Positions 4,997 through 62,227 of a DNA stretch of 64,000 bases are shown here, one piece after another (the first letter of the stretch is position 1; each line of letters begins with the position of its first letter). The notes under the pieces are model-generated. The model was given only the letters and a program-made list of their open reading frames with translations. It did not search any database and had not been told where the DNA came from. Source of the DNA: Pelagomonas calceolata (taxonomy: Eukaryota > Sar > Pelagophyceae > Pelagomonadales > Pelagomonadaceae); assembly GCA_918797485.1 (NCBI GenBank), contig CAKKNE010000003.1:3968001-4032000 (forward strand). Direction: 5' to 3'. The position numbers and the translations under genes are program-made.

Positions 4997-5594
4997 TGTT
5001 ATCGCTCTTCAAACTCGCACTGATGGTTGGGATTGCTTTCGCACGAGTCGTGAAGCCGCTCAAAGTCAGCTGTGCGGCACCTTGCGTCCTATGCTGGCAG
5101 CGTCAATGCCCAGTGTGCTGGAGGCTGATTTGTGACAGGGTCGCACGGCCCACGATTGGCACGGACGGGTCGTCAACCAGTCCCGGCATTGCTCTATCTC
5201 GCCCAGTGCCGGCGTCTGTCCTGACCCAAGCTAGCGTAACTCTGTCTCTAGCAAGCCATTCAAAATCGGTCTGCGGTGAGATCACCGGCGTTCAAGCGCT
5301 CGCTGGACGTAAAACTGGACGCCGCGCGGCTGTGAGGAGCTCACATTTAGGCTGATCTCGTAGCACAGCTGAAGAAACCGCGCGCCGCCGCGTCTGTGAG
5401 CCGTAAGACACCGCGCGCTCTGCGAGAGGGAACGCCGCGCGCGCGCCCTGACGCCCGCGCCGCGGCACAGCTAGACGCCCAGCCGCAGCGCGCGCACCAA
5501 CGCCATTGCACAAACGCGCGCGCGCGCTGAGACACGCACCGTGAGCCACGCACCGCCGCCGCAAACGCCCGACACACCGACGCAGGCCACAAAG
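4997..5594. other. divergent promoter region (NTF2-like / POLA1)
   Basis: About 600 bp between two divergent start codons. The clearest content is a copy of the GCTAG palindrome at 5230-5256. The part nearest Pol alpha is strongly CG/GC rich, with alternating GCGCGC runs around 5400-5540. No ORF here looks real. Confidence 0.5.
5230..5256 (+). repeat. dispersed GCTAG palindrome, diverged copy
   Basis: GCTAGCG, then TAACTCTGTCT, then CTAGCAAGC. Arms match the consensus; the central AAGACA is altered. It lies about 340 bp upstream of Pol alpha and 235 bp upstream of the NTF2-like start. Confidence 0.6.
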
Positions 5595-8500
5595 ATGGAG
5601 CGCGCCCGCCGCACGGGCACGAAGAAGCAGTCCCGCGAGGCCGTGCGAGCGGCACTGCGCGCGGCCAGAGAGGGCGGCGCCGCAAGATCCGACCAGTGGG
5701 AGGCGAAGGAGGAAAAAGATGTGTACGAACAAGTAACGGAGCAGGAGTACGCCGACCTCGTGCGGAAGCGCCGCCAGAACGAGGACTTCGTCGTCGACGA
5801 CGACGGCCTCGGCTATTTTGACGACGGCGAGGAGCACTTCGGCGAGGACGTCGCGGAAGGCCTCGAGGAGGCCGCTCCCAAACAAAGAGGTGTGGTCCAC
5901 GCGCGGTCGAAGGACGCCGTGCGGAAGGCTAGAAAGTTGAAAGAAGCGCGCGCGGAGGGCGAGGAGCGCCAGACGACGAAGATGACGCAGTTCCTCGGCG
6001 GTGATGGAGAGAAGAAGGCGCCGAAGAAGCCCGTCGCCGCCGTGAAGCAACTAGACGCCTTCGAGTCGTTAATTGATGGGTTGGGGAGCGGTGCCGTGAC
6101 TGAACGGAAGTCCGTGGACCTGGGCGGCGGCCTCGGCTTCGCGAACGAGGCGCCGAGCGGCCCCAAAGTAGCGCCGACACCTAGACGCATGACCTACGAC
6201 GAGGTCAGCCCGATGCCGTTGTGGTCGGCTGGTGTGGATCTGGAAGCATCAATTGGAGGTGGTGGTGATGACATGGGCATGGGATTTGGGATGGCCGACG
6301 ATGATGTACCGGCCGCGTTGCCGGCGGCCCTGCCTTCCACCAAGGACGCCCCTCTGCCGCTCAAGGCGACCGCGGCCCCCAAGAAGAAGAGCCGCTTCTC
6401 GAAGAACGACGTCGTGGTCGAGGCGTCGACGGCCGCTCAGACGGCCATGGCCATGGACGTCCGCGCCCGCGTCCCTTGAGTCACGCGTCGACGGCGCCGA
6501 GGGCTCGGCACGCCATCGCCGCGACGCTCACGGGTCTCAACAACACAGGTCGACAAGCCCGCCGCGACCGAGGCCGCTCCCCAATTACCGGAGCGCATGG
6601 ATGTGGATGAAAGCGCCCCTCAAGCGGACCCGAATTATGGTGGCGGGAGTACGGTCGACAAGCTCGAGGAGACGGAGTGGCTGCGGGATTCCGAGGGCAA
6701 GCACTGCTGGCTCTACTGGCTCGATTGTGTGGAACAGTCTGGCTCTGTATACTTGCTCGGGAAGATCCGACTCGAAGGGGAGCAAGATAGATATGCCTCA
6801 GCTTGCTGCGTCGTGCGGAACGTCGAGCGGAGCTTCTTCATCTTGCCTCGAGTCGATTCCGAGACCGGTAGCCGTTACGGCATGAAGGACGTCTGGGAGG
6901 AGGCGCGGTCGGAATTGGTCCCGCGGTGCGTCCCCAAGTCCGAGCCCTTCAAGTGCAAGGGCGTCAAGCGCGGCTACGCCTTCGGCGACGACGACGTGCC
7001 CCGCGACGCCGACACGGAGTACCTGAAGGTCAAATATTCGGCCAAGAATCGGGCGCCGCCGGTCTCGTTGTGTAAACGAGGCGGCCGGTGCATCGAGAAG
7101 ATCCTCGGGGCCGGTTCCACACCTCTAGAACAATTCTTGATCAAGCGCAAGCTCATGGGGCCCTGCTGGGTGCGCATCGACGCGCCGGTGCAGCGCGACT
7201 CGAAGGTCTCGTGGTGCGTTTTGGAGGTCGAAGTGTCCGACGCGAAGAAAATAACCGTCGCGCGGGACTGCCCTTACTCGGCGCCTCCTCTCGTTTGTAC
7301 GACGCTCAGTGTCAAGACTGCCGTGAACCCCAAGAGCCATCAGCACGAGATCGTCGCGGTGGCGGCGCTCACTCACAGAGGTGTTGCCGTCGACGGGGCC
7401 ACTCCCGATGGAGGAAGGGGGGAAGATGCCCGGTTGTTCCAGCATTCCACCGAGAAGCAGGAGGCCGGGAGTCGCAGATGGACCTGCGTCGCGGCGCGGC
7501 CGCTCGGTGCGGAGATCGCCGGCGCGCAAGATACACCGTTGGATCCGAAGCTGCCTAGAGATCTCCACGGCGAGCTGAAGAAACCTACGCATGGTTTTTT
7601 AGCTGATAGAGGGACCGTCACGGTCGCACCCAACGAACGGGCACTCATCTCCGTGTTATTGGCGCGCTTGCAACGGGACGACCCGGACGTGCTCTGCGGG
7701 CACAACATCCTCGGCTTCGAGCTCGACGTCCTGTTAGCGCGAGCCCTGGCCCTCAAGGTGGGCAACGCCTGGTCGAAAGTAGGGAGGCTCAAGCGCAACA
7801 AGCCGCCTCATCGGTGGAAGGCCGCGTCGGGCCGGGACACGTTCCACGCGTCGGCCACTTCGGGGAGACTGATCTGCGACACTTATTTAGCCGCCAGAGA
7901 ACACTTAAGAGGGGCCACGACCTACGCGTTGGCGGCATTGGCTCAGACGCAGCTCGGTGTGCGAGGCCGCCGATCGCTGGAGCCGCGGGAAGTAGCTCAA
8001 CTCCTAGGAAGCGGCTCCCAGAACGTCTGTGGACTCCTGAGGCACGCCGCCGAGGACTGCCGGTTAGTAGAACGACTCGCATTACGTTTGCAGGTGCTCC
8101 CGCTGTCCAAACAACTTACAGCGATCTCGGGAAACCTACTAGCGCACACGTTGAAGGGCAAGCGCGCGGAACGCATCGAGTACCTCTTGTTACATGAGTT
8201 CCACCGCATGAAGTACCTCGCGCCCGAGAAGCAGCGGTATGATGCTGATGATGACGACGACGTCCGTGACTCAGCGTCCTTACGCCATCGACGCGACTCG
8301 TGCGGGGTCTCATGATTCGTTCACCACAGGTCGACCACAACAAGAAGAAGCGCAAGAAGACGGACCCGCACAAGCGCCAGAAGGCCGCGTATTCCGGCGG
8401 ACTTGTGTTGGAACCCAAAAAAGGGTTCTACGACAGCCACGTGCTACTGTTGGACTTCGCGTCGCTCTACCCTTCCATTATTCAGGAGTACGACCTCTGC

Positions 8501-10390: not shown

Positions 10391-10436
10391 GTAGGCGCTC
10401 CCTTGCCCCCGCCTAAGAGGGTTTATTATTAGCAAT

Positions 10437-11111: not shown

Positions 11112-11300
11112 GGCTGCTCAGGGCCGCAGGCTTTGTGGCCTCTCTGAGAAGTCCTCTCAGGACTCAGGAGAGCCAAATATCGGCCCAATCGCCTAATGGA
11201 TCGCGGCGCGTCGTCGACGCGTTGGCCGGGTCTTCGCGCTAGGCCCCAGGCGGCGACCACCCGCGCGAGCACCGCTACACAACTTGCCCTGGGCAAGCTA

Positions 11301-11328
11301 GCTAGCGGCTTGTAAGACACTAGCAAGC
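11301..11328 (+). repeat. dispersed GCTAG palindrome, near-consensus
   Basis: GCTAGCGGCT followed by TGTAAGACACTAGCAAGC. This is the reference form. It lies about 190 bp upstream of the ubiquitin-like gene start (minus strand). Confidence 0.85.
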
Positions 11329-11969: not shown

Positions 11970-12420
11970 GGCGGCTCTCCGAGGCTGCTCTCAGTTCAAG
12001 GTTGTCAAGCTCGGGATGCCGCGCGCGGCCCGAACCGCCGGCCGCGCAGGGCCTCGAGGGCTTAAAAAAGGGCAACGGAACCTGGTCGCCGAACTCAGTG
12101 CAGCCTCGCGTCGACAGATGAGGTCACCCTGCACTCAGAGCAAAAGCAGCCAAAGCCTCAAAGTTGCCTATTCCGTCCCGGCCCTGTGGCCGTGCAGAGA
12201 CGTCGAGCCGTAGCTGAGCCCGCGGAGACGCGCTGACGTAGCTTGGGAGCAAACGCGCTAGCGTAGAGACACTAGCAAAGCAAGACAGAGCAAGCTGGGC
12301 CGCAGCGTCGTGACGCAGCAACGAGACTGCTAGAACTGTGCAAAAGTAGCATTTTTGCACCAGCGAACTGCCACGGCAGCTCCTAGCTCAAGACCTGCTG
12401 TGAACAGGGCAGGCAGCAGC
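11970..12420. other. divergent promoter region (PAS protein / METTL21-like)
   Basis: About 450 bp between divergent starts. It contains a palindrome copy at 12257-12281 and several CTAGC half-sites around 12230-12290. Short frames here have no recognisable product. Confidence 0.5.
12257..12281 (+). repeat. dispersed GCTAG palindrome
   Basis: GCTAGCGTAGAGACACTAGC then AAAGC. The GACACTAGC core and both arms are kept. It lies about 140 bp upstream of the methyltransferase ATG. Confidence 0.75.
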
Positions 12421-27765: not shown

Positions 27766-28195
27766 GGTCCTAGGGTGGCGGCGGCGGCGTGCGCGGCTGC
27801 GTCGCGGGCGGCCGCGCGGCGGCGGGCGCGGGCCTCAGCGAGGCGGCCTCGGATGCCAGCGGGGCGTGCGGCGGCGGCGGCTCCGACTGCGCGTGGCGGG
27901 AGCTCCCAGCAGGCACACAAAACACTACAGCTCGTCCTCTGCGGGACGCGTGTGGCGCGGGCGAGTCGCTGCGGCTAGCTAGCGCTTGTGTAAGACACTA
28001 GCATTGCTAGTGCCTTACAGGCCGCTAGCTAGCGTCGTGTTGCGCAGCGCAATCAGCGCAAACTTGCACCGCTGGGCACCAGCGCTCGCGCACAGTTTTG
28101 AATAGTACTCACGCAGCCGTCGCTTCCAACCACGAGAGCTATAACTGCAAAACTGCACTCACTGCAGCACAAGCAGCACCCAAGCACTCGAACGC
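27766..28195. other. divergent promoter region (SNRPA1 / DCTPP1)
   Basis: About 430 bp. The part near SNRPA1 is GCGGCGGC rich; the centre holds a head-to-head double copy of the palindrome at 27974-28033. The part near DCTPP1 is AT-richer. Frames with Arg/Ala-rich products here are composition artefacts. Confidence 0.5.
27974..28033. repeat. double (head-to-head) GCTAG palindrome
   Basis: A forward copy with GTGTAAGACACTAGC is followed two bases later by a reverse copy TGCTAGTGCCTTACAGGC and CGCTAGC, flanked by GCTAGCTAGC on both sides. It can form one long hairpin. It lies 162 bp upstream of DCTPP1 and about 210 bp upstream of SNRPA1. Confidence 0.9.
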
Positions 28196-29556: not shown

Positions 29557-30054
29557 GGGCGGTGGTCTCAGCACCTAATAAGGTAGGTCTTACAAGTCCC
29601 GCCCCTGTCTTGACAGCACCCTCTGGGCAGCCTACCAGCGTCGTGTCGTGTCGCGGCCGTGGCGTCGGGCAGCGCACGGACTCTCGATTCGACGGTGTCG
29701 CTGCCGTGCGATGGGCGCAGTACGACACAGGCACCGACTGCCGCCCGCGCCCGGCGCCGGGCAAATACCCAACGACTCCGCTAGCCGAGCCGCCGCGATC
29801 GCAGCGATCCATGGGCCCTCCCGCTGGCCGCAGCGACTCGGTCGACGCCTCCAAGCGCAACCCGCACCAAGCTAGCGGCGGTAAGGCACTAGCAAGCTGG
29901 GCAAGCGGGACAAAAGCGCGGCCAACAATGGGTCGCTGACCGATTTCGACTGATCATATAGCGCAAAATATTGGCACGAACGCGCCGGACAAGCTGCTCC
30001 AGTCGCCGTTGCAGGCACGGCTGCAAAAGCCAGCCCTAGGCCACCGGCAGTCCC
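29557..30054. other. divergent promoter region (NlpC-like / USP)
   Basis: About 500 bp between divergent starts, with one palindrome copy at 29871-29897. Short frames are unremarkable. Confidence 0.5.
29871..29897 (+). repeat. dispersed GCTAG palindrome
   Basis: GCTAGCGGCGGTAAGGCACT then AGCAAGC. Differs from the reference by AAGGCAC for AAGACAC. It lies 158 bp upstream of the USP ATG. Confidence 0.85.
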
Positions 30055-33000
30055 ATGGGCCTCACCTGCGCCAAGGCCGACGTGAAGACGCAAGCACCCC
30101 TTGAGGAGACCGAGGACGCCCAGGATCGTAGTGATGAGCTCCTCGAGCGGTGGCGGTCCGGCGAGCTCGCGCACCTGCAGCGCGTGTACCGGCGCCACGC
30201 GCGGCCGCCACAAACCCTGGACAGGGATGGACTGGTAGCAGCTTTAGAGTTGGAGGACCACGCCCACACGGATACTCTGTATGAGTTGTTCGGGACCGGT
30301 TCCTGTCGCGACTTCTGTCGAACGCTGAGCTGGTGGTGTAGGGGCGACGCCTCAGAAAGGAGGAGCTTCTTGTTTTGCTGGTTCGCCATCTCATCCACAG
30401 CCGACAAGGACGCGTTGGTCGGAGGCGACGCGTCATCCGCAGAGCTCCCGAAGAACATGTTGGGTGCCCTCTGTGCTTTGCTCGAAACGCCGCCGCCCTA
30501 CCACCTCTGCGCCAAAGGTACAGTAAGTTGGCGCAAGTTCGACGGTTGGGCGCGGACGTTGTCTGACGAGCAGGTCTGGGCCGCGCTACCTTTATCCATA
30601 GTGTCCCAACCGGAGACGGAGCGGGCGCTGGTCCTCGAGCATTGGCACGAGGGTAGTCCAGGAGATGTCTACCACGTGATTCCCAGGAGGTGGTGGGACT
30701 CCTGGTGTGCTTATGTGGGCTGGTCGAATTTAACACCACCCGCACCCGGCGCACGTTTGACCGTGAAGCCCGCCGGCGCATCGTCTGGTGTAAGGCCGCG
30801 CGACGTCGACGCGTCTTCATTAGAATCCGATCGAGACGGCGCACTCAGAGCCAAGATAGATATAGCTTGCGTTCCCGTTGATGTGTGGCGGCTCTTCGAG
30901 CAGTGGTACGGCGGCGGGCCGCTCTTCCCGCGACGGTTGCAAGAGGACGGGGCGTTGGATCTGTACCCCGTCTCCGTTTTTATCGACGAGTGCGATGCGA
31001 ACGGCCGGCCGCGGAACGCCTTTACGGCTAGACGAGCGGATCGGAAGGAGACGGTACAAACTTTTGCGAGGCGCCTCTCTGATGGTAATTCGCGCCTCTA
31101 CGCGACGTCGCCGACGGGCTGGCGCCGCTTGACACCTTCATCGAGATGTGACGAGGTGCTCGAGGCTGGTAGCACGTATCTGCTCGAGACGAAGATTGAG
31201 GGAGTCTGGCCCCGCGCGTCGTCACGATACGTTGTGGGTGACAGAGTATCAGCAAGGGACCACACGGAGCGGTGGCGCAGCGGTAAAGTCATAGCGGTGT
31301 CCGAGACGCGGGGCGTCAAAGTGCGTTTCGACAGTTTTAGTAGCAAGTGGGACGAGTGGCTCACAAGCGATCGGTTGCGACGAGAGGATGTGGATATTGA
31401 CGACGTGTCGTTATCGGAGGACGAAGAAGAGAGGCCCTCTTTACTTAAGGGTGCCGTGTCTTCGCTCAGACGAGTGCTCGGCTCCAATGAGGAGGAAGAG
31501 GAGGAAACGAGACGGCTGCCGGCCACCGGTCTCGCGAACCTGGGAAATACGTGTTTCCTGAACGCGGCGGTGCAGTGCCTGTCGCACGCTCCTATCTTGC
31601 GGGCGTATTGTCTTTCTGAGATGTATGCACAAGACATCAATCGGACGTCGCGACTGGGCTCGCAGGGCCGCGTCGTCGAGGCGTTCGCCGACTTACTGAG
31701 GCAGCTCCACGCTTCACAAATTTGCGTCCGCCCCGAAGGCTTCAAGAAGGTGCTCGGAAAATGTAAGCCCCAATTTGCGGGCTCGGAGCAGCAGGACTCC
31801 CAGGAATTTCTCACCGTGCGGGCGCGGCGTCCGTCTTCGTGATCACATGAGAGTCTACGCGCCTCGCGGTCGCGTCGATGGCGTCGATGCGGACGCGATG
31901 CCTCGACGCCGTCGACGCCGTCTTCATGATCATCAGAGAGTCGATGTGTCTCGTGGATGTCCAGAGGCAGCGTCGCGATTGTATATGTTCCACGCAGGAG
32001 CTGTTAGATGTCTTACATGAGGACGTCAACCTCATCCAGGAGAAGCCCTACGTGCCGGAGCCCGAGGATGCGGACGAGGCCCGCGACGGCTTGGTGGTCG
32101 CGGCGCGCGACGCGTTACGTCGCAGTCGCTTGCGAGACAAGTCGTTAATCAGCGACCTCTTCCAGGGCCAGCTCGTCGCCAAGAAGACGTGCAAGGTCTG
32201 CGCGCGGTCGTCCGTCAAATTCGAACCGTTTACGTCTTTGTCCTTGCCGGTACTGACTCGGCGTCTGTTTCTGTGGTTTTCTGAACTTCAAGTTCGCGTC
32301 GATGGCGTCGGCGCGACGTCACGCCGCCGCGGCGCCGTCGACGGGGCCGTGCGAGCGTCTCGTGAAGAGCCACGGCAGTTTCGTGAGTGTCGTTCGACGC
32401 AGGTCCCGGCGCCCGCTTCTCGCTCCTTCGTCGTCGCTGTCCTGCGCCTCGCGAAGCACGCCAACGGCCACCCCTCGCTTACCGTCAGGGTCGAGGCGCC
32501 TCGGTTAGGGGATGTGCGGGACCTGAAGAGTGCGATCGCGGCCGAAGTCAAGCTCACTCCGGACAGTTTGACGCTGTGCGACGTGGCCAGACACCGGATC
32601 TACCGCGTCCTGGACGAGGACACGCTACCCTTGGGAGCGTTGGGCGACTTTCCGCAAGTGACGGACGCGTCGAAACGCCTACTGATTGCGTACGAGCGGC
32701 CTCAGCTCGAACTCGCGAAAACACCAAGCATAGACTTTCCCTCGTCGTTTGAAGAACTAGCCGTCGGGCAGCGCCTCGACGCTTTAGATCATAAGCGCCA
32801 GTGGTACGTCGGGACCGTGGTTGATGATACCGAGCCGTGCCGAGACAAGAATTTCGGGAAACCAGGCTACATACGTATTAGATTTGACCGCTTCTCGGCG
32901 AAGTGGGACGAGTGCTTCTGTCGTGATGACTGGCCGGCCAAACTCCAGCCGCCGTACAGCAAGTCCAAGGGCAACCGGCTGGCGGCCTTCGAGATAGGTG

Positions 33001-34133: not shown

Positions 34134-34449
34134 CGATATAGTTGTGTGTGTCAACTTAGAGGTATAAATAAAAAGGCGCCGCTATCCCGCGGCGGCCCCC
34201 GATGCGCTACCGTCGCCGATCTGGGATTCCGGCGTCCGGCCTGCTCCCCCCCTCGCCGTCGTCGCCTCCGGGCCAATACTCGGGGCGACGGCGTACGTGG
34301 GCGGGGGCGGGGCGGGCGTGCGGTCACGCAGCCCCCGCGGCGGCCGGGTGGCTAGGCGGCCTAGCTCTAAGCAAAGCAGAAATAAATAATTCAAGTTAAG
34401 GAAGCCTGAGGAATATCCTAAAGGAAAGGACATATATAGACGGGGTGGG
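34134..34449. other. intergenic region between convergent genes
   Basis: About 315 bp of 3' UTR sequence for the USP and the Cys-rich gene. It has AT-rich ends (ATAAATAAAAAGG, AATAAATAATTCAAG) that may serve polyadenylation and a GC-rich centre. No gene seen. Confidence 0.4.
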
Positions 34450-35742: not shown

Positions 35743-36179
35743 TCCCTCGCCCACGACCACTCCCAACACCGGCGCGGGTAGTTCCTCCACTGGGCTGGCT
35801 TCCGGCTGCCCCACGACCGGCTCCAAGACTGGCAGCGCTGCGTCGCCGCGAGACGCGCGAGACGCGCGGATATCCAATTCGGCAGCTGCTAGTGCCTGGC
35901 CGCTAGCGCGGATCTCCCGTACGCAGCCAGAGATGGGGCTCCGCCCACTAGTCCTAGCACCGTAACATCGACTACAAGAGATGCCTATTATCGCCCGTCA
36001 GGCGCTACTCCAGGCGTCGGGACCGCGGCAGGCGGGGCCCCATCCGTCGCCCGCGCGGCATTTGGTACGGACCCGGTCACCCGGGACCGCTCCCGCGGCG
36101 CGTAGAGAGGCCGCCGCCCCACGCGACGACGCGAAACGGAGAGAGCAGACAATTACAAAGGGGGCGGCGCGCGCGGCGC
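35743..36179. other. intergenic region upstream of the Cys-rich gene
   Basis: About 440 bp with one palindrome copy at 35888-35907 and little else. It also covers the 3' UTR of the small minus-strand gene. Confidence 0.4.
35888..35907 (-). repeat. dispersed GCTAG palindrome, short copy
   Basis: GCTAGTGCCTGGCCGCTAGC. The TTACA part of the core is missing; both arms and the CTAGTG edge remain. Confidence 0.65.
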
Positions 36180-38755: not shown

Positions 38756-39267
38756 GGGTTCGTCGAGGGCCCGTTCCAGGAGCGTGTTGCGGCCCTTCTC
38801 GCCGGCGGTCCAGGCGCGGTAGGCCCGGCTCAGGAAAGACGCCAGGATTTGTTCGTAGATCGCGGGTCAGAGAGGTAAGCGCGGTGGTGGTGGACGGGCG
38901 CGGCGGCGGGCGTGCGGGACGGTCACGAATCTCAGACTGCGCAGGCTCCTGAGCGTAGCGCGCTGCAGAGGTGGCTGCGCGAGGGCTCGACCGTCACGAA
39001 TGTCTATCTCTGTCGAATTTTCTGCCGCGTAGCGCCGGGTTAAGCTTGTCCAAAAAGGCGTGCTCGCTAGTGTCTTACGAACGCTAGCTCGGTTTTTGGG
39101 GCGTGAGCGTGCTTTGAGGACGCAAGGGGGCTGAGCATTACTCTTTGACTCCAAACGACTAGCGTTCGAAAGCCGCACCGAGCTTCGGCAGCCGTGCACG
39201 CCCGGGGAGTCCCAAAAGCCTCACAGCCTCTCCTCCGCAGCGGGAGACGCCATCGACGCGCCAAGCC
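38756..39267. other. divergent promoter region (DHHC / PTPA)
   Basis: About 510 bp with one palindrome copy at 39066-39088. A CTCCGCAG followed by CGGGAGACGCCATCGACGCG just before the PTPA ATG could be a remnant of an introner or a 5' UTR 3' splice site. Confidence 0.45.
39066..39088 (-). repeat. dispersed GCTAG palindrome
   Basis: GCTAGTGTCTTACGAACGCT then AGC, reverse orientation. It lies 180 bp upstream of PTPA. Confidence 0.85.
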
Positions 39268-40278
39268 ATGGCCGCCCTCGAGGAGGCCTTCGGAGAAGTC
39301 ATACAACGGCAAATCACCGACGACGCCTCCTTCACCAAATGGAAGGCGTCGGCCGCGCGGCGCGAGGTCGTCGCCTTCGTGACGCGTTTAAATAACTCCT
39401 GCGTCAACAAGCCGAATCTTAGTATAGACGCGGCCCCTTTGCAAATAAGGAAGCTCATGGACGCACTACGAGCAATAGCGAAGGGCTGCGACCAGTACCT
39501 CCCGACGCCGGGCGAGGCCCGACGGTACGGCAGCCCCATGTTCCGCGACTGGCACGCCTGGCTCGTCACAACCGCACCGGGGCTCCTAGCATCCCTAGGT
39601 TCCGACAGCGCCGAGCTTGCTGCGCGTTTAGCGGCTTCATTTGGCGATAGAACGAGAATCGACTACGGTACGGGCCACGAGGCCGCCTTCGTCGTGTTTT
39701 TACTTGGTTGCTTTAAACTCCAACTCATCAATGACGACGCTATCGATAGCGGTGCCGTCGTCTGCGGCTGTTTCGCGGAATACGTAAGGACGTGTAGAGT
39801 CGTCCAACGGTGTTTTGGCTTGGAGCCGGCCGGGAGCAAGGGCGTCTGGGCGCTGGACGACTACCAGTTGCTACCTTTTTTATTTGGCTGTTCGCAGTTG
39901 GCAGACGAAGAGCACGGGTTCGGCGACGAAGATACCGGTCTACTGACAGTAAACGCGGTTGCATTGTCCCAGCGAAGCATGTTCTACGAGTGCCTGGCGT
40001 TTGTGGATGAACAGACGGGCCAGACGCCGTTAGACGTGGCCGCGCCCATCCTGTTCAATTTGACGATGCAGCCGTGGCGCGTCAATGCAAGGCGGCTGCT
40101 GCGGTTGTTTGACGAGGAGGTATTAGGTCAGAAGCCCGTCGTGCAGCACATGCTGTTCGGCGAATTGCTACGAGCGGACTGGGATTCGAACACGGGCCCG
40201 TCCGAGGAGTCGGAGCGTTTGATGAGGATGAAGGCGGTCATGGACGCCGCCAATCGGAAGCTGGGGATCGGCTCGTAA
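39268..40278 (+). CDS. PTPA: serine/threonine phosphatase 2A activator (PTPA)
   Basis: 336 aa, single exon, normal length. Family blocks: RLNNSCVNKP, MFRDWHAWL, IDYGTGHEAAFVVFLLGCFK (ATP-binding site), GVWALDDYQLLPFLFGCSQL and APILFNLTMQPWRVNARRLL. PTPA is a peptidyl-prolyl isomerase-like chaperone that loads catalytic metal into PP2A catalytic subunits, acting in cytosol and nucleus. No odd features. Confidence 0.96.
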   Translation: MAALEEAFGEVIQRQITDDASFTKWKASAARREVVAFVTRLNNSCVNKPNLSIDAAPLQIRKLMDALRAIAKGCDQYLPTPGEARRYGSPMFRDWHAWLVTTAPGLLASLGSDSAELAARLAASFGDRTRIDYGTGHEAAFVVFLLGCFKLQLINDDAIDSGAVVCGCFAEYVRTCRVVQRCFGLEPAGSKGVWALDDYQLLPFLFGCSQLADEEHGFGDEDTGLLTVNAVALSQRSMFYECLAFVDEQTGQTPLDVAAPILFNLTMQPWRVNARRLLRLFDEEVLGQKPVVQHMLFGELLRADWDSNTGPSEESERLMRMKAVMDAANRKLGIGS

Positions 40279-40687
40279 GCTCTTTTTGTTTCAAGTTGCG
40301 TTTTTCGAAGTGTTTTTCGCGCGGCGCGCGTTCGTTTGGCTTTCTGTTGACACGTCCCTAATCGACCGTTGCCGTCGGCGACGAGGACGTCCTCCAAACT
40401 CTGCGGAACGTCCGTTCGACGGTTCTAAAATCATGTAAAAACCCGTGACTGAGGTGTTTTGAGCCCAGCTCAGAGCAGCTCTTGCACCGCACAGGTTGCC
40501 TGCCTGCAAGTATCACGGTGTGCAAGACACGCTAGAGTAGTGTCCGTAGCTGTCCGCGACGAATAACAACACGCGAAGACGCTGTCGCCGCGCACTCAAC
40601 AGAGAGCGCATCAGCCAGCTCAGGCTGCATTTCAAAACGACGACGTCGCTGCGCCGAATCCTCTCGTTAGCGACATCCGTCCGCGCC
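40279..40687. other. intergenic region upstream of the photolyase
   Basis: About 410 bp, AT-richer than average. It holds a diverged palindrome copy at 40518-40550. Confidence 0.4.
40518..40550 (+). repeat. dispersed GCTAG palindrome, diverged copy
   Basis: GTGTGCAAGACACGCTAG followed by AGTAGTGTCCGTAGC: a forward AAGACAC..CTAG half next to a reverse TAGTGTC half. It lies about 140 bp upstream of the photolyase ATG. Confidence 0.5.
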
Positions 40688-42226: not shown

Positions 42227-42610
42227 AGCGTCGTTGTATGACCCGTGTAAAGTCCTTGATTGTATGACTCTCTGTGCGAACAGAGAATGAGAGAGAGAGA
42301 GTCGCTTATTGAACCCACCCCCAGGTAGTACGGACCCCGAGCGCTTCGAATGAGCTAGCGGCCTGTAAGACACACTAGCCAGCAATTTGTGCTCTGCGCA
42401 AAGTCGGCACGCGCGCCCCGCGCCCCGACGCCGTCGTCTTGGCGCTTGCCGAGTAGCGTTACCGAGCCTGCCCGGCGCTCCCTCCGACCAACGCATCGAT
42501 TGGAGGCTGCCCACACTTTGTCCCACCGGCACGCCACCGCCGCGCCGCGGGCAGCGCGTCGCCTCGTAGAGCTACCAAGCGTCACAGCGGGCTGCCCCGC
42601 CACCACCGAG
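42227..42610. other. intergenic region upstream of CNNM
   Basis: About 380 bp with a GAGAGAGAGAG run at 42289-42301 and a palindrome copy at 42354-42383. An open frame runs upstream of the CNNM ATG but has no family similarity. Confidence 0.45.
42354..42383 (+). repeat. dispersed GCTAG palindrome
   Basis: GCTAGCGGCC then TGTAAGACACACTAGCCAGC. A two-base insertion (ACAC for AC) separates the core from the right arm. It lies about 228 bp upstream of the CNNM ATG. Confidence 0.85.
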
Positions 42611-44800
42611 ATGGCCATCGTCGAGTACGACACGGGCTCGAAGGGCTTTGATGGGTTCCTCACCTTCGTGTCCATCCTCATCTTGGTCCTGTTATCAGGC
42701 CTGTTCAGTGGCCTCACATTGGGACTGCTCGGCTTGGACCTCAGTGAGCTCGAAATTGTGAAGGGGGGAGGGTCGGCGACGGAGCGGCGGCGCGCGGCGA
42801 AGGTCATGGGCATCCGCAAGGACGGCAATAGGTTGTTGTGTACGTTATTGCTGGGCAATGTGGCGGTCAACGCTCTCTTGTCCATTTTTCTGTCTGGTGT
42901 CACCTCTGGTTTAATAGGGTTCTGCGTGTCGACGGCGCTCATCGTGGTTTTTGGCGAAATCCTCCCGCAAGCGATCTGCTCGCGCCATGCGCTGAAGATC
43001 GGGGAACTGGCGCTACCGATCGTGAACGTGATCATGGTCGTGCTGGCGCCGGTCTCCGTGCCCCTGAAGACGGTGCTCGACAAGTTGTTAGGTGATAGCG
43101 TCGGTACCATACATACGAAGACGGAGATGATCCAGTACGTGAAGCTGCAGCACGAGCGCGGTCCGCGACGCGGCGTCGTGCATCGGTCGACGCTTCACGA
43201 GACCTCTCGTTCCGCGCGCAGGCGACCTCAACGAAGATGAGAGGACCATCATGCAAGGGGCCATGGATATGAAGGTGAAGACGGCGCGGGAGGTCATGAC
43301 GCCGCTCGAGGACGCGTATATGCTGGAGGAGTCGTGCAAATTATCGTTCGCCGTCGTCCGGGACATCTTCGACCACGGGTTTTCCCGAGTGCCGGTCTAC
43401 GCAAGGGAACGACAACATGTCGTCGGGTTATTATTTGTAAAAGATTTGATCTTCGTGGACCCGGAGGACGAGGTACCTCTGGCAGAGTACCTGCGGGTCT
43501 TCGAGCGGTCGATTGAGCTCGTCGACGCCGAGTCCAATTTGGATGACGTCCTGCGCATCTTCAAGCGCGGCCGCGGCCACCTCGCGCTCGTGCTGGGGCA
43601 GCCGCGGAAATCATCGATGGTCGAGGCCGACTGCCTGTCGCCCCTGCACGGCAGCGACAAGTCGTTCATCGTCGGGCTCGTTACGTTGGAAGCTGTGTGG
43701 AAATCAACCAGTGCGTCGGGTGCACAAGTCATTTCTCGGCGATGACGCGGCCGTGCTGGCTCCGTCAAGCAATGAGGAACCGGCATCGCCACGCCATCGA
43801 GCAGGCGTCGCGTCGATGGCGTGGAGGACGACGCGATGATTCAGCACGAACGCGCCGTGAACTTTTGATTTCCACACAGGTTGGAAGACATTATTGAGGA
43901 GATCTTAGGCGACGAGATCATCGACGAGACGGACGTGTACGTGGACGTCGACAACCATGTGAAAGTGGACGGCAGGAGCAAATTCGGTCGGCGGGCGGCG
44001 TCCTCCTGCGGGTGATTCAACGTGCGAGCGTCGCGGCGGCGGCGTGGGGGGTCGGACGCTGTCTCGGGGGAGCTCGCACGCTATCGACGCGACCCGTCGC
44101 GCATCTACGCCTCCCTAGAGTACGCCATCGACGCGACGCGTCCCGCGCAGATTTCACTAAATTGCGACGCCTGGACAGCGCCGTCGTCGACGCTACTCTG
44201 ACAGAGGCGGAGGTGAAGGCAATAGCTCAGCACCTCGGCGGCGAGCTCAAACAACCCGCCGACGCGTTAATGGCGCTGGTCCGGAGAGCGTCGGTCGTCG
44301 ATCACGAGCGCAGGACGCCCGAGGCCGAGCTCGACGCCGGCCGACCGCCGGAGCCCTCCGACGTCGTCTACGAGCGGGGCTTTCCCGCGAACTTCGCTAC
44401 TCTTGTACTATCGGGAAAGCTGTCAGTGAAAGCCGGCGTGGACGGGTTCCGCGCCGAGGCGGGGCCCTGGACCTTGTTAGGTGCGGGCGCGTTACGACAT
44501 GAAGACTTCGTGCCCGACTTTTCCGCTCACGTGGCCACGGACAGCGTCAGATGTGTCTACCTCTCGCACGCCGAGAAGTCGAACGCGCCGCGTCGTGCCC
44601 GCAAGGATGATATGAGGCGGTCGCCGTCGCGCGAACGGCGGCGCTTACGTAGAGACCGGCGCGTCGGCGACCGGCGGGGCGCGCGGTCGGCGCTCGGGCT
44701 GGGCCGCGAACTGGGGCGCCCGGCGGGGCGGCGGGACCCGTCGTCGCGGTCCCTGAGTTTTGATTCGCCGGTGCGCGGGACACCTCCTCCCGTAACGTGA
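42611..44800 (+). CDS. CNNM/CorC-type metal transporter with DUF21, CBS pair and cNMP-like domain (four exons)
   Basis: Exons 42611-43160, 43222-43684, 43880-43986 and 44151-44800, 589 aa. The DUF21 membrane domain: LTFVSILILVLLSGLFSGLT, LLGLDLSELEI, LLCTLLLGNVAVNALLSIFL and VVFGEILPQAICSRHALKIG. CBS modules follow: MDMKVKTAREVMTPLEDAYM and GHLALVLGQ to FIVGLVTLEDIIEEILGDEI. Exon 4 adds FDFTKLRRLDS, VVYERGFPANFATLVLSGKL and ALRHEDFVPDFSAHV, matching the cNMP-like domain of CNNM proteins. The tail is Arg/Ser rich. These proteins move or regulate Mg2+. Start at 42611 is the ATG next to the family's first helix; no signal peptide. Intron 2 is the clearest transposon-like introner in the window. 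Confidence 0.92.
43161..43221 (+). other. CNNM intron 1
   Basis: 61 nt, GT-AG, phase 1, starting GTCCGCGACGCGGCGTCG and ending CGCGCGCAG. Joins LQHER to GDLNEDERTIM. Confidence 0.85.
43693..43879 (+). mobile_element. introner with perfect 15-bp TIRs and 8-bp target duplication (187 bp)
   Basis: Begins CTGTGTGGAAATCAA and ends TTGATTTCCACACAG. Flanked by exact GTTGGAAG at 43685-43692 and 43880-43887. The spliced intron is 43685-43879: the 5' GT comes from the left target copy and the 3' AG from the element. Joining restores ACG-TTG-GAA-GAC (TLED), the uninterrupted CBS sequence. Interior holds GCGTCGCGTCGATGGCG and a facing CGCCATCGAGC. Confidence 0.95.
43987..44150 (+). other. CNNM intron 3 (introner-like)
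   Basis: 164 nt, GT-AG, phase 1. Contains CTATCGACGCGACCCGTCG and TACGCCATCGACGCGACGCG near the 3' end. Joins GRSKF to DFTKLRRLDS. Confidence 0.75.
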
Positions 44801-45487: not shown

Positions 45488-45838
45488 CGTGGTCGGCGCC
45501 ACGGCTGCCTCGAGTTGGCTCCACTGCAAGAATTGATCGTCTGTGTGTCGGAACGCGTCGAAACCGTACGAATGAGTGCGATTAGCGCCGATAATAGGCC
45601 AATAGCCACAGCTTGCGCAATTGCTAGTGTCTTACATGACGCTAGCTGGCGCCGACGGTCGCAGTGGGTTTGGCGTGTTTTTTGGACCCGCTGACGGCTG
45701 TTGCACGCAGAGACGCTGCGCACGTCTTCTCTGAGCAGTCCTGTGGCCGCGCGCCAGTCGCCGCGCACCAGTAAGCTCGCCGCAGCCGACGCCAGCCGAC
45801 GCGACGCGCAGCACGCCCGCCGACGCGCAAGCGCAGCC
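45488..45838. other. divergent promoter region (DUF1997 / METTL26)
   Basis: About 350 bp with a near-perfect palindrome copy at 45623-45646, 135 bp from one ATG and 193 bp from the other. Confidence 0.5.
45623..45646 (-). repeat. dispersed GCTAG palindrome
   Basis: GCTAGTGTCTTACATGAC then GCTAGC, reverse orientation, between two divergent genes. Confidence 0.88.
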
Positions 45839-46621: not shown

Positions 46622-47226
46622 GGTCGTCCTCCTGTGTAAGTGATATGACTGTGATACTTCTGTTGCGTCGTGCCGCGTGGCACTTCCGTAGAGAGCTAAC
46701 TTTAGACGTTTATAATCGATGCGTGCGCGTCGATGGCGTATGGGGGCAGCTTGCCATCATCACCTGATACATCTATGCTCGCTAGTGCCTTTACAGACCG
46801 CTAGCTGTGAAACCTGGACAACAACTGGCCTACGGCTTTATTTACGGCATTCGCCATTCATAGGGCGTAAAGTTTTGCGTGTGAGAACCACGGTCGGTCG
46901 CGTGGTCTCGTGTCGAGACGTCACAATTGTGAGACGACGGAAAGCAAAGTTCTTGTGGATCTTTACCTTAGCCTTGCTCGTACGCAACCGCAGTATCCGC
47001 GGCCGCAAAAACTTGCCTCGGGGAAGTGCAGTGACAAATTCAACCACCGGCGGTGTACGTATCATTGCCATGGCGAGCACGGTCCCGCCCTGCGGCCGGG
47101 GTTCGGTCCAGCCGCTCTGGGACAGCACTAGAGGTAAATACGTCGAGGTCGAATGCCCGCACGCGTACCGCGTCGAACGTTCGTGTAATGCACCACACGC
47201 CATCGACGACGCGATTCCACACAGGC
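46622..47226. other. intergenic region with palindrome and introner-like motifs
   Basis: About 600 bp. Contains GCGTCGATGGCGTATGG at 46726-46742, a palindrome copy at 46781-46805, and CACGCCATCGACGACGCGAT then TCCACACAG at 47198-47226, which looks like a 3' splice end of the TIR introner family. An ATG at 47070 opens a short frame (MASTVPPCGRGSVQPLW) that could be the first exon of the fragment below. Confidence 0.4.
46781..46805 (-). repeat. dispersed GCTAG palindrome
   Basis: GCTAGTGCCTTTACAGACCG then CTAGC, reverse orientation; an extra T in the core. It lies upstream of the truncated METTL26 relative. Confidence 0.85.
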
Positions 47227-49874: not shown

Positions 49875-49902
49875 GCTAGCGGTGTGTAAGACACTAGCAA
49901 GC
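49875..49902 (+). repeat. dispersed GCTAG palindrome, near-consensus
   Basis: GCTAGCGGTG then TGTAAGACACTAGCAAGC. Identical to the reference except two spacer bases. It lies 250 bp upstream of the sugar-transporter ATG. Confidence 0.9.
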
Positions 49903-50910: not shown

Positions 50911-51238
50911 CGCCTAAACGTGGGGTCGCGAAGATGACGAATCGTGCCGCTCTAACGGGTCATCTAAAGTAGTTAGATAAGTGTTCAATCGGCCTAGATG
51001 GACTCTACCCCCAACAAACGGAAGGAAATGAACATAAACGCGAGAGTTGTCTAGTAAAATTCTTTTCCCGCCCTCCGAGCGCGGGCCGTCGGCTCCGGTT
51101 CCGTCGATTATGCATGAAAACTGGGCTGGAGTTGATATGATGTATCATTTGGACGGTAGAAGGCGCCGTCAATCGCTGGTGTATTTTGGCGAGCCGCAAG
51201 ACCTAGTGATCTAGCGTATCGACACACTAGGAATCCGT

Positions 51239-54837: not shown

Positions 54838-55290
54838 GCTTCCAGGCTCTCCCCAGTGAGGGACACTTTCTGGTGCGCTCCGCGGACGAGCTGCCCCGTG
54901 CGCAGCAATGCTGCGGCGCGCCCGCGCGACGCAACGGGCTGCGTTTGCCCCGCTGCCGCTGAGGCCTCGGTATCCCGCGCGCCGCGGCGCTTCGGCGCTT
55001 GTGCCTAGTGTCTTACCGCTAGCGCGTACTCAGGCCATAGGAGCGGTCATCGGAGCTAGTGGCGTCCAGGCGTACTCCGAGGAGCGCTCGGTGCCACTAG
55101 CAGCAACGCCCACGCCGAGATCTACAAGGACTCTGTCCCGGTCTGCGACTACTCGGACGGCCACTAGTGGAAGTGAATACATTACAGGCTAACAGTTGGG
55201 GAGCCGGCCGTGTGCGCGGCGGCGAGGGACTTTCTTTTTTTCTTGATCTTTTTTCGGGCGGGGGACGAGGGGAATGATGGTGAGCGACGT
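54838..55290. other. intergenic region upstream of the sulfotransferase fusion
   Basis: About 450 bp. One palindrome copy at 55004-55023 and three more CTAGT/ACTAG half-sites (around 55050, 55097 and 55163). The last 100 bp is the 3' UTR of the bestrophin gene. Confidence 0.45.
55004..55023 (-). repeat. dispersed GCTAG palindrome, compact copy
   Basis: CCTAGTGTCTTACCGCTAGC: the core TAGTGTCTTAC is intact, the spacer short. It lies about 167 bp upstream of the fusion gene ATG. Confidence 0.85.
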
Positions 55291-56898: not shown

Positions 56899-57163
56899 TT
56901 CTTAGGGTGTTAGCTGCATTTATGCGGCAACGCACAGCCACCAATTGTCGCGCGTTCCCTGCATCTCGAGTCGCATCTCGGCGGTCCGCGTCTGGTAGGA
57001 TAGGTCATCACGGAGTCCCAGACGGGGTTTTGGGGGACCGACAAGTGAAAGCAGAGGGATCTGGGACGCCGTTGCGACGCTCCCCATCAACAAGAAGCAG
57101 AGGCGCGCCCCGCGGACGCGCGGTACACGAGCAGTAGAAGGACACCAAGCTTAGGCCCCCAAC
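56899..57163. other. intergenic region
   Basis: About 265 bp between the bestrophin start and the PF20 3' end. No palindrome copy or gene seen. Confidence 0.35.
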
Positions 57164-59311: not shown

Positions 59312-59761
59312 GGCGCTCGTGGGGCTGCCCTGTCCTCGCGGCTGCTGGGGCTGCCTCGCACGCGTCGCGCGGCAGCCTTTTTTTGGGTGAGCTGTGCGCG
59401 GTGGCTAAGCTGTAAGCTACCGGTGAGCTCGCGTCACTCACGTGCTTTGCTCGGGCCGGACGGCGCAAATTAGCCCAGCCGCTGTTGGATGAAACGCCCG
59501 ACGCCACTAGGCTTTGAACGCTAGTGTCCGTCCGGCAGCAGTCCTGGGCGGCCGGAGGAGTGCTCGTGCTGGGTCCACGCCTCGCTCGAACGCTGCCGCC
59601 GTTGGCTGGCCTCTCGAGAAGTTTGCTTTTGCCTTGCCTGCTCTCCGGCGCAAATAGGCACGCCCACGCGCTCCGCGAACGCAGAGCGGCGTCCAGCAGT
59701 GCGACGACGTACATATCTCCTCGCTGCGGCAGCGTGACGCCTGCTCCACGACGCACAGCGA
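59312..59761. other. divergent promoter region (SPAG16 / DUF1772)
   Basis: About 450 bp. A degenerate palindrome copy (CCACTAGGCTTTGAACGCTA followed by GTGTCCG) lies at 59504-59530, about 200-230 bp from each start codon. Confidence 0.45.
59504..59530. repeat. dispersed GCTAG palindrome, degenerate
   Basis: CACTAGGC, then GAACGCTAGTGTCC. Both CTAG arms and the CTAGTGTC edge remain, but order is altered. Confidence 0.45.
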
Positions 59762-60545
59762 ATGCGTTGCTCGTTCATCGCATTAGCTGCGCTTATTACG
59801 AGCGTAAACGGCCTATCCGCGACGCGCCGCCGCCTGCCCGTATCGCGCGAAGAGCCCGCGACGCGCGCTATCAAGAAGAACCTCGCCCGCGCCTTCGCGG
59901 TTCCACTCGTCGCCGGCGCTGCGTCTCGTGTAGAGCCAGTCCGCAAGCTCATGGCAGGATTCGACCGCATCCGCGTCGGCCTCGTCGCCGGCACCGTCGG
60001 CGCGGCCATTCTAGGAGGCTGCTACTTCATCTTCTCGTTCTGCGTCATGGACGCCTTGAATCAGCAAGACCCACAGACGGCCATCAATACGATGAACAGC
60101 ATCAACGTCGTCATCGTGAACCCCAAGTTCATCGCAGCATTTATGGGCACGCCGCTCATATGCTGCTGGCTGGTCGCCGAGGCCCTGGCGGTGGGAGTAG
60201 GCTCGTCGACGGACGTCGCGCTCATGCTCGGCCCGGCGTCCTTGCCGGGATCGCGCCGACGGCGTCGCCCTCACGCCGTCGACGCGACGCAGGTTCGGCG
60301 GCGCGCTCACGCTCATCGTCGGCGAGTTCCTCGAGACGATCATATGTCACATCCCGAAGAACGACGCCCTCGCGGCGCACAAAAAGGGCGGAAACGACGC
60401 CGAGGTCTGGGCGCGCTACTACACGTCCTGGACGGCCTGGAACCACGTGCGGATGGTCGCGTCCCTCGCGACGGTGGTCCAATTCTCGCTCGCGCTCTTC
60501 TACCGCGGGGCACGCCTCGGAGGCGGCTATGGCGGCCTGCCGTAA
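59762..60545 (+). CDS. DUF1772 family membrane protein (two exons)
   Basis: Exons 59762-60237 and 60293-60545, 242 aa. MRCSFIALAALITSVNGLSA is a signal peptide, perhaps followed by a plastid transit region (RRRLPVSREEPATRAIKKNL). Membrane helices include RVGLVAGTVGAAILGGCYFI and PLICCWLVAEALAVGVGSS. Exon 2 supplies the DUF1772 end: ETIICHIPKNDALAAHKKGG and YYTSWTAWNHVRMVASLATV, where NDAL, W and WNHVR are family marks. Fungal relatives include anthrone oxygenases, but activity here is unproved. The intron is 55 nt and contains CACGCCGTCGACGCGACGCAG-like sequence at its 3' end. Confidence 0.85.
60238..60292 (+). other. DUF1772 gene intron (introner-like, 55 nt)
   Basis: GT-AG, phase 2. Starts GTCCTTGCCGGG; the second half is ACGGCGTCGCCC and CACGCCGTCGACGCGACG, two facing copies of the shared intron motif. 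Confidence 0.85.
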
Positions 60546-60645
60546 GTGTAGTAAGGATTGTGTACATGTGCTTTTCTCCTCCTCTAACATGTACCGTCAT
60601 AACACATTCCGTCGACGGACGATGTACACGCGTGTTCTTTCGAAA

Positions 60646-60671
60646 TGCTAGAGTGTGTCGACACGCTAGCA
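60646..60671. repeat. GCTAG palindrome, symmetric variant
   Basis: TGCTAGAGTGTGTCGACAC then GCTAGCA, almost a perfect inverted repeat centred on GTCGAC. It lies 125 bp upstream of the racemase-like gene. Confidence 0.7.
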
Positions 60672-60796
60672 TCGACTCGGCGCGCCAAAAAGCTGCCTAA
60701 AAAGCTCGTACGAACCTCGTACGCGCGCGAGGTCTCGGCATCCACCCCGCACGCCATCGCCGCGCAGCTCTACGGCAGTAAAACAGAGCAGCAGCC

Positions 60797-61876
60797 ATGC
60801 CCTCCAAAGCCCAGCAGCGCTACCTGCTGGCCAGCGCCGTCGCGGGCGTCGCCGCAGCCATCAGAATCATCAGAAGACGCAACATCCACGTACCACCGCA
60901 ACCGCTCCCAGCCGATTTCCCCGTCACACCCAAAGATGTCGTCGACGCCGCGAAACGCGTCAGGCCGCACGTCCACCGGACGCCAGTCTTAACGTGCCAT
61001 GGCCTCGACGAGCTGGCCGGGCGCTCCCTGAAGTTCAAGTGCGAGGTCTTCCAGCGGACGGGGTCGTTCAAGATCCGCGGGGCCACAAATGCAGCTTTGC
61101 AAGCGCCCGAGAACGCGCCCCTCGTGACGCACAGTTCGGGCAACCACGCCCAGGCCCTGGCCCTGGCAGCTAGATCCACAAACCGCGAGGCCCACGTCGT
61201 CATGCCGCGGACGGCGCCGGCCGTGAAGCGCGCCGCGGTCGCGGGCTACGGGGCTCATATAACATTATGCGAACCTACCAACAAAGCAAGGGCCGAAGCC
61301 GCTCAAAAAAAGACCGAGGAGGTCCAAGGTTATTTTGTGCACCCGTCCAATGAACCTAGAGTCATCTCGGGACAGGGGTCGGTCGCGGTCGAATTTTTGG
61401 AGCAATGTTCGGACCTGGACGCGTTGGTCGTGCCGGTCGGCGGCGGCGGCCTCATTGGCGGCATTGCGGTGTACGCGAAGTGGAAGCGGCCTTCGTTGAA
61501 GATCATTGGGGCTGAACCGAAAAACGTGGATGATGCTTATAGGTCCAAACAGAAAGGTGAATTAGTAGGCCACGACGACCGGGATAGTGTGGCGGACGGC
61601 CTGAAGACGCTCCTGGGGTCGAACACGTGGCCCGTGGTCCGCGATTTGGTCGACGAAATTATCACTGTGGAGGAGAGCGAGATCAAAAAAGCGACGGCGT
61701 TAATATGGGGCCGCATGAAGCTGTGCATCGAGCCGTCGGCGGGCGTGGGCGTCGCGTGTGTCTTGTCCGAGGCGTTCCGGGCGAGGTATCCCGCGGACGA
61801 GTACGGGACGGTGGGGGTCATCTTGTGCGGCGGGAATTTGGATTTGGCGAAGGCTTCGGCGAAGCTGTTCGCGTAA
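60797..61876 (+). CDS. serine racemase / threonine dehydratase-like PLP enzyme, membrane-anchored
   Basis: 359 aa. Fold-type II PLP enzyme: FQRTGSFKIRGATNAA holds the Schiff-base lysine (about K92), SSGNHAQALALAA binds the substrate carboxylate, VPVGGGGLIGGIAVY binds PLP phosphate, and LCGGNLDL is the C-terminal motif. Spacing fits serine racemase more than biosynthetic threonine deaminase, as there is no regulatory ACT domain. Unusually a hydrophobic stretch (YLLASAVAGVAAAIRII) followed by RRR precedes the enzyme, suggesting a membrane anchor or organelle signal. Reaction: interconversion of L/D-serine or serine/threonine deamination. Confidence 0.92.
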   Translation: MPSKAQQRYLLASAVAGVAAAIRIIRRRNIHVPPQPLPADFPVTPKDVVDAAKRVRPHVHRTPVLTCHGLDELAGRSLKFKCEVFQRTGSFKIRGATNAALQAPENAPLVTHSSGNHAQALALAARSTNREAHVVMPRTAPAVKRAAVAGYGAHITLCEPTNKARAEAAQKKTEEVQGYFVHPSNEPRVISGQGSVAVEFLEQCSDLDALVVPVGGGGLIGGIAVYAKWKRPSLKIIGAEPKNVDDAYRSKQKGELVGHDDRDSVADGLKTLLGSNTWPVVRDLVDEIITVEESEIKKATALIWGRMKLCIEPSAGVGVACVLSEAFRARYPADEYGTVGVILCGGNLDLAKASAKLFA

Positions 61877-62227
61877 GTTTAGTATGGATTGTACTGCTGT
61901 GTCTCGGTGCTGCGTCTCTATGCTGCGTCTGCTCGATGGCGTAGCATGCGGGTTGTGTCGAAGGCAAGCTTTCGGTTGTGGAAGCCGTCTCCTCTCGCGC
62001 TCCTCGACTCTCTGCGTACGTCCCAGAAGAGCGATTCATCGGCGAAAATAATTTAGCTAGTATCTTACCGGCGCTAGCTAATTACACAAGATCGACAGAC
62101 GCGCACTTTTTGTCCTTCTCACGCTGGCTGTGCGCCCTAAACTCGCCCGTTGAGTGATTTCCGACAAGCCTGTCTGTGCGGCCAGCCCTGGTGAAAGCGC
62201 GGTCCGCCCCGAAAGCGCAGCCGCGCC
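61877..62227. other. intergenic region upstream of the plastid coiled-coil gene
   Basis: About 350 bp, with GCTCGATGGCGTAGCATGCG near 61932 (introner-like motif) and a palindrome copy at 62054-62080. Confidence 0.45.
62054..62080 (-). repeat. dispersed GCTAG palindrome, extended arms
   Basis: TAGCTAGTATCTTACCGG then CGCTAGCTA. Core has TATCTTAC for TGTCTTAC. It lies about 148 bp upstream of the next ATG. Confidence 0.8.

Follow-up and report, generated by a model that had tools for sequence, protein, structure and literature searches.

A long CTAG palindrome between divergent genes of Pelagomonas calceolata, a probable regulatory element of bidirectional promoters

A long near-palindrome with a CTAG in each arm recurs in a 64-kb stretch of the genome of the alga Pelagomonas calceolata (C3:3968001-4032000, here called the window), and in thousands of copies in the genome as a whole. 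In the DNA sampled it is found between genes, most often between genes that point away from each other. We consider it probable that this motif, bound by a protein, serves nuclear promoters as a cis-regulatory element that acts independently of its orientation and marks bidirectional promoters. A motif of this length, present at roughly one in two of the gene starts sampled, would offer a handle on the transcription machinery of the alga; it would help to locate gene starts and divergent gene pairs in such genomes, and it is a candidate part for the construction of bidirectional promoters. To our knowledge, promoter logic has been little studied beyond animals, fungi, plants and oomycetes.

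The genome searched has 32,445,274 bases in 8 contigs. The part of the genome paper drawn on here describes an assembly of six nuclear contigs of 32.4 Mb, together with a plastid and a mitochondrial contig, and gives 16,667 genes, 0.45 introns per gene, an intron-length peak at about 210 bp and a GC content of 63.6% (PMC9481584). The sampled DNA comprises 314 kb, i.e., the window, 200 kb of contig C1 and 50 kb of contig C5. Sites were scored with a gapped consensus with a maximum of 23.8, and every match of 17.5 or more is counted as a site. Gene segments are the predictions of a periodic Markov model of open reading frames (ORFs), trained on the window and C1; the C5 stretch was fetched after both the site score and the coding model, already trained, had been settled, and lies outside the training set. 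The minimal ORF length was lowered from 50 to 40 codons at the time of the gap counts, those of C5 included.

Sequence and abundance of the palindrome

The consensus of the motif is A-GCTAGCG[G/T]cc-TGTAAGACACTAGC-AA. It consists of two unequal inverted half-sites, GCTAGCGGC and GCTAGTGTC, and measures 20-26 bp from end to end, mostly 23-24. Among the 71 sites of the sample the core length is 20 bp in 5 cases, 21 in 1, 22 in 6, 23 in 15, 24 in 38, 25 in 4 and 26 in 2. The 38 copies of 24 bp have GCTAGCG, a semi-conserved spacer (G/T, C, C) and TGTAAGACACTAGC, with A preferred before the core and AA after it. When these copies are aligned, the borders of the motif are sharp: conservation ends one base 5' and two bases 3' of the core, so that the whole extends over about 27 bp.

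The motif is far more frequent than chance would allow. At a score of 17.5 or more the sample contains its 71 sites, i.e., one per about 4.4 kb, whereas five order-1 randomisations gave 2-6 each and the reversed sequence gave 7; at 19 or more it contains 57, where the randomisations gave 0-1 and the reversed sequence 0. The 11-mer TAAGACACTAG has, with at most one mismatch, 9 matches in the window where 0.25 are expected, and in the whole genome it occurs 1,241 + 1,262 = 2,503 times on the two strands, while the reversed control gives 4 + 3 = 7. For GCTAGCGNNNTGTAAGACACTAGC, in which 21 fixed positions are matched exactly, the genome-wide count is 351 + 320 = 671 (control 0 + 0), for GCTAGCG-N4..13-CACTAG it is 1,666 + 1,709 = 3,375 (control 7 + 9 = 16), and for the loose palindrome GCTAG-N4..18-CTAGC it is 3,611 (control 913). 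The genome-wide count of motif and reverse complement, which the earlier note on this DNA had asked for, thus gives a large excess over the reversed control. Extrapolation from the 71 sites, with roughly a tenth subtracted as false, leads to an estimated genome total of about 6,500-7,300 sites.

The earlier note had described the motif from the letters of the window, and window scores, sample counts and genome-wide counts all bear the observation out. All 14 places of its clear list (15 sites, the place at 27974 being double) score 18.9 or more, and together with 51210 they make up the 16 window sites. Its two weak copies fared otherwise: the one at 40518 scores 14.0 or 14.6 by two alignments, and the one at 59504 scores 14.8, or 16.3 with the alignment shifted to 59519-59539. 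Both were left out, because randomised sequence often yields scores of 15-16 (in 200 kb, 133 matches at 15 or more and 42 at 16 or more).

A palindrome may act as a structure rather than as a word, for instance as a hairpin in the 5' leader of an RNA or as a cruciform in DNA. The arms GCTAG and CTAGC can indeed pair, as the earlier note had remarked, and one of eight folded window copies is more stable than its shuffled counterparts (z -2.38). If pairing were what is conserved, a change in one arm would be matched by a change in the other. In fact 31 of the 71 sites have an arm mismatch, and not one of them has a compensatory change. The other seven folded copies lie within 2 standard deviations of the shuffled controls when folded as single strands, the window has no Rfam match at the gathering score, and the motif is placed in both orientations. 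A hairpin function is therefore very improbable, and the hairpin mentioned earlier is not supported.

Among the literature matches listed, no promoter motif from a pelagophyte is described in a title or in the beginning of an abstract. Three forms of the motif core occur in some papers that are unrelated by title, and no account of the motif was found there. The term 'motif' is absent from the main texts of PMC9481584, PMC13284251 and PMC12054182, and the main text of PMC3520976 likewise gave 0 for the terms asked. In viral contigs, a set from which records very near the genome of the window may be missing, there is no match to the exact 24-bp pattern. A link to viruses was considered and dropped: a looser pattern has a single viral-contig match, with 48-57% GC in 1-kb windows and 701 bases read, which is taken as chance.

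Placement relative to predicted genes

Over the sample, 37 of 58 divergent gaps contain a site, compared with 23 of 85 tandem and 5 of 59 convergent gaps (Fisher test: p = 1.7e-10 for divergent versus convergent and p = 1.5e-5 for divergent versus tandem). The number of sites per kb decreases in the same order, from 1.28 in divergent over 0.73 in tandem to 0.36 in convergent gaps, and falls to 0.004 in coding sequence, where 233.6 kb hold 1 of the 71 sites, a weak one (17.8). In the window, 72.5% of which is predicted coding sequence, none of the 16 sites lies in it (p ~1e-9), in agreement with the earlier statement that no copy sits inside a supported exon. That several copies stand between divergent genes had also been noted, and was an understatement: divergent gaps are the most frequent position of all.

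A predicted start codon lies within 450 bp downstream on at least one side for 64 of the 71 sites and on both sides for 38. The corresponding figures are 66% and 23% for random intergenic points, and 22% and 6% for random points in the genome. The distance from site to ATG, taken over 95 starts, has a median of 193.5 bp, an interquartile range of 153-248 bp, a 10-90% range of 105-296 bp and a peak at 175-200 bp, so that the interval of 125-250 bp given earlier holds roughly.

With its place upstream of genes and a peak in the distance to the ATG, the motif resembles a directional core-promoter or transcription-start element, which is what the earlier note proposed. The upstream placement in this proposal is strong in three separate stretches, and from this follows that the motif is not a randomly scattered repeat. 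A start element at a narrow fixed distance, in contrast, is not supported. The 10-90% range of distances is broad, a single site is common to the starts of two divergent genes, and in tandem gaps 12 sites lie on the strand of the gene and 13 on the opposite strand, i.e., there is no preferred orientation, while parts of the paper on oomycete core elements describe those as forward-biased (PMC3599244). A directional start-site element is disfavoured by the lack of orientation bias and, provided that leaders are uniform in length, by the lack of tight ATG spacing. Moreover, when a site in a divergent gap is counted for both genes, 95 of 190 gene starts have a site and 95 do not, which argues against any universal role. 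A universal core element is thus unlikely, because half of the sampled gene starts lack the motif, and a directional start element we regard as having little probability.

Within divergent gaps of 200-700 bp the motif is central, with a relative position of 0.50 +/- 0.135 (n = 36; Kolmogorov-Smirnov test against a uniform distribution, p = 0.0025). A boundary, a replication start or another element of chromosome structure between divergent units would also be expected in the middle, and the C1 places listed skip a stretch at about 2.70-2.93 Mb with apparently low GC. Against such elements speaks that one site per 4.4 kb would seem too dense for origins or large boundaries, and that the motif also occurs upstream of tandem genes, where 24 of 25 sites lie 74-377 bp from the ATG. 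A structural role of this kind is accordingly given small weight, about as small as that of a directional element.

Whether the motif distinguishes classes of genes was considered for two protein domains. Of 14 matches to the light-harvesting domain 3 have a site upstream, and of 14 to the lysine-methyltransferase domain 8 have one; among random 841-bp pieces of C1, 18% contain a site. The difference between the classes is not significant (Fisher p = 0.12) and gives no support to the idea of a regulon; the test is also biased, in that the 28 domain matches were chosen by hand among the higher-placed of 93 and 59 listed matches, and in that the methyltransferases were selected because three of them, among 30 motif genes, carried the motif. 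Pfam matches at E <= 1e-5 were obtained for 21 of 30 motif genes and for 13 of 30 genes that lack the motif, one of these 13 falling under the cut-off of Pfam itself. This amounts to no more than a trend, and false ORFs may be commoner in the set without the motif. The two sets were taken in list order from 66 and 47 eligible genes, respectively, two motif-less genes being skipped. For a promoter comparison between paralogues there were too few pairs.

Information content, constraint and proposed mechanism

The information in the motif, summed over the 71 sites, is about 32 bits, a value somewhat inflated by the selection on score. To mark 7,000 places among 65 million strand positions, about 13 bits suffice by our own calculation. 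The excess suggests that two factors read the motif, that its reader is a long protein with multiple fingers, or that copies in different promoters are homogenised, and it brings the old question of how promoter elements become so uniform into a testable form.

The excess is also what would be expected of a tiny repeat, self-spreading or driven by gene conversion, that prefers promoters, so that its position would reflect target preference and not function. The 671 copies that are identical at 21 fixed positions are in line with such a repeat, as are the double palindromes at 27978/28006 in the window and at two places in C1. So, further, are direct repeats at the flanks: those of 4 bp occur at 13 of the 71 sites, compared with 5.3 after permutation (0 of 200 permutations reach 13) and 4.3 +/- 2.1 when displaced within the same locus, and those of 5 bp occur at 4 of 71, compared with 1.4 permuted (5 of 200 reach) and 1.0 displaced. 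The direct repeats, however, stand at scattered offsets of which none is constant, those of 6-8 bp are at or below the permuted control, and the conserved A, AA and AGC flanks together with the double sites explain part of the excess, the rest being unexplained. The element is only 24-27 bp, with no common flank immediately beyond the core, and its central placement and its deficit in coding sequence and convergent gaps would demand extra assumptions. In the balance, a mini-repeat without function appears improbable, and somewhat less so than the structural and directional alternatives. The end of a usual transposon or miniature inverted-repeat transposable element (MITE) was rejected: there is no duplication at constant offset and no shared internal sequence, and the length of about 27 bp is below about 50 bp.

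Two cases, in which the motif is kept while sequence beside it differs, may be read as signs of constraint. The contig CAJWEZ010000013.1, from a metagenome-assembled genome and filed as uncultured Spirochaeta, has at about 2040-3620 some 1.6 kb that match C1:2154808-2156473 in two pieces, one with 96% and the other with 90% identity. It is probably a chimeric assembly, in which an alga-like piece stands between ORFs that are bacterial-looking by eye, and this piece appears to be a wild allele from the species studied here. Over the 293 reference bases aligned with this putative allele around the motif, the 24-mer itself is intact. On the left, 3 bases are inserted directly at its border, and an indel of 1 base follows at a distance of about 11 bases; on the right, there are two substitutions and a deletion of 2 bases at 9-17 bases, and one more substitution farther out. 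The second case is a pair of divergent gaps, 3 kb apart on C1, that have in common a 75-bp block with 83% identity and the palindrome at equal offset; the sequence between block and palindrome differs by eye.

To return to a protein-bound element of bidirectional promoters, its action may be pictured as follows. The palindrome is situated near the middle of a short divergent region, about 190 bp from each ATG; a smaller share of the copies precedes a tandem gene. A protein that recognises the sequence, either as a dimer or through multiple fingers, would bind it on double-stranded DNA. The bound factor would keep the region common to the two divergent genes open, and polymerase could then start on both sides, as with the general regulatory factors of yeast or the human CGCG element. 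Binding, opening and initiation in both directions are steps that we infer by analogy with these systems.

Several observations weigh against this account. The excess of about 32 bits over about 13 is more than an ordinary site for a single factor calls for. Of the 71 sites, 7 lack a predicted start nearby, a lowered cut-off giving a weak candidate at 1 of them, and 21 of the 58 divergent gaps have no site of this score. C1 bears most of the statistical weight in the gap contrasts: C5 alone goes in the same direction (4 of 8 divergent, 4 of 11 tandem and 0 of 8 convergent gaps, with no site within 39 kb of coding sequence) and is too small for significance (p = 0.077 versus convergent, 0.66 versus tandem), and in the window alone 7 of 10 divergent gaps compare with 3 of 11 convergent (p = 0.086, short of significance) and 4 of 18 tandem (p = 0.020). 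The gene models are our own periodic-Markov ORF calls and not the published annotation, so that some of the tandem and convergent labels are wrong. The wild allele and the pair of similar gaps are one instance each, neither of them statistically compelling, and the genes beside the two gaps gave no protein match at 1e-10.

Window copies, neighbouring words and known systems

The window sites are collected in the table. The PTPA protein encoded at 39268-40278 has environmental relatives at 89%, and its nearest named relative, from Aureococcus, is at 48%, in keeping with a pelagophyte origin of the DNA.

Table 1. Sites of the palindrome in the window, with scores from the gapped consensus and the predicted genes around them
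Feature	Position	Strand	Score	Setting
Palindrome copy	5230..5252	+	18.9	Divergent genes starting 4996(-), 5595(+)
Near-consensus palindrome copy	11301..11324	+	23.4	Gap called convergent; weak minus-strand ORF starts 202 bp away (~11111)
Short-spacer palindrome copy, 20 bp	12257..12276	+	19.5	Divergent genes starting 11969(-), 12466(+)
First of head-to-head double palindrome	27978..28002	+	22.5	Divergent genes starting 27765(-), 28196(+)
Second of double palindrome	28006..28029	-	22.6	Partner of 27978..28002
Palindrome copy	29871..29893	+	22.5	Divergent genes starting 29556(-), 30055(+)
Short-spacer palindrome copy	35888..35907	-	19.9	154 bp before start 35742(-)
Palindrome copy	39066..39088	-	22.1	Divergent genes starting 38755(-; DHHC domain), 39268(+; PTPA)
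Long-spacer palindrome copy, 26 bp	42354..42379	+	19.1	244 bp before start 42611(+; CNNM domain)
Palindrome copy	45623..45646	-	22.9	Divergent genes starting 45487(-), 45839(+)
Palindrome copy	46781..46805	-	19.6	No predicted start within 450 bp
Palindrome copy	49875..49898	+	23.4	262 bp before start 49625(-; nucleotide-sugar transporter)
Borderline degenerate copy, absent from earlier list	51210..51231	+	17.6	No predicted start within 450 bp
Short-spacer palindrome copy	55004..55023	-	20.4	338 bp before start 54675(-)
Variant copy, different core	60647..60670	-	19.3	138 bp before start 60797(+; PALP enzyme)
Palindrome copy	62056..62078	-	21.1	No predicted start within 450 bp

Comparison of the flanks revealed short stretches common to a few pairs of sites, and these pointed to neighbouring words. 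At 35935-35965 the window has the 31-bp word GGGGCTCCGCCCACTAGTCCTAGCACCGTAA, whose 17-mer core CACTAGTCCTAGCACCG has 209 exact copies in the genome (control 0); of the 6 sample copies, counted with variable bases allowed, 4 have a palindrome at a distance of 44-62 bp. Another palindrome, in which CTCTAAGCAAAGCA comes after GGCTAGGCGGCCTAGC, is found at 34350-34378 of the window, in a convergent gap, and at C1:1189628 and C5:2538543. The sample has four similar stretches, all in gaps called convergent, and the 19-mer GGCCTAGCTCTAAGCAAAG has 82 exact genome copies (control 0); this other palindrome may represent a common signal for 3' ends or termination. GGGCWGCC words are over-represented in the divergent gaps of the sample; their usual place is 0-150 bp upstream of the ATG, on the gene side of the palindrome, and GGGGCAGCCT occurs 490 times genome-wide (control 77).

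The listed matches of the 11-mer (plus strand), of the full motif, of GGGGCAGCCT and of the 17-mer mostly skip C1 at about 2.70-2.93 Mb, where 400 bp at 2.80 Mb have 49% GC; this could correspond to the centromere-like region of low GC in the genome paper, or be due to chance. In tandem gaps, e.g., at 8264-8320, 31824-31902 and 43697-44171 of the window, ACGCCATCGACGCG is repeated, as is its reverse complement, and here and there the two form an inverted pair. Such gaps between same-strand segments may be introns, and the repeats are possibly ends of introner elements.

A bolder conjecture, which we hold to be rather improbable, is that a few long, near-invariant CTAG words form a small vocabulary that punctuates the genome: the palindrome at bidirectional promoters, CACTAGTCCTAGCACCG often 44-62 bp beside it, and a further palindrome (GGCTAGG..CCTAGC-CTCTAAGCAAAGCA) in convergent 3' gaps. 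The promoter word, with more than twice the information needed, would then be read by two factors at once or be kept uniform by copying between promoters, and promoters would thus spread as short homing units.

Among known systems, the sites of the general regulatory factors of yeast (Reb1, Abf1, Rap1) are orientation-independent, stand upstream of many genes and are frequent in divergent promoters. The present motif is likewise indifferent to orientation, upstream, frequent between divergent genes and present at many genes. The yeast sites are shorter and carry less information, and the factor of the alga is putative. The introner elements and MITEs of pelagophytes have many short dispersed copies with inverted ends, and the mechanism of introner elements is reportedly treated by Huff et al. 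2016. Many short dispersed copies with inverted ends are seen here too, but the present element has about 26 bp, sits in promoters and not in introns, and has no consistent target duplication.

The oomycete elements INR, FPR and DPEP, as parts of the paper concerned present them, are close to the start site and mostly in the forward orientation, INR and FPR being AT-rich and DPEP having the form SAASMMS (PMC3599244); the terms 'palindrom' and 'CTAG' are absent from the text of that paper. They are, like the present motif, promoter elements of stramenopiles found through over-representation, and differ from it in lying near the start with a forward orientation, while the motif described here shows no preferred orientation. 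The CGCG element TCTCGCGAGA is described as a CpG-based word of 10 bp in TATA-less promoters of vertebrates, which drives divergent starts according to reporters and nascent transcripts (PMC6192621). Both it and the present motif are palindromic, located in promoters and linked to bidirectional transcription, the latter through its placement. The alga's motif differs from that element in its length of 24-27 bp and in its unrelated sequence, and its part in divergent transcription is putative.

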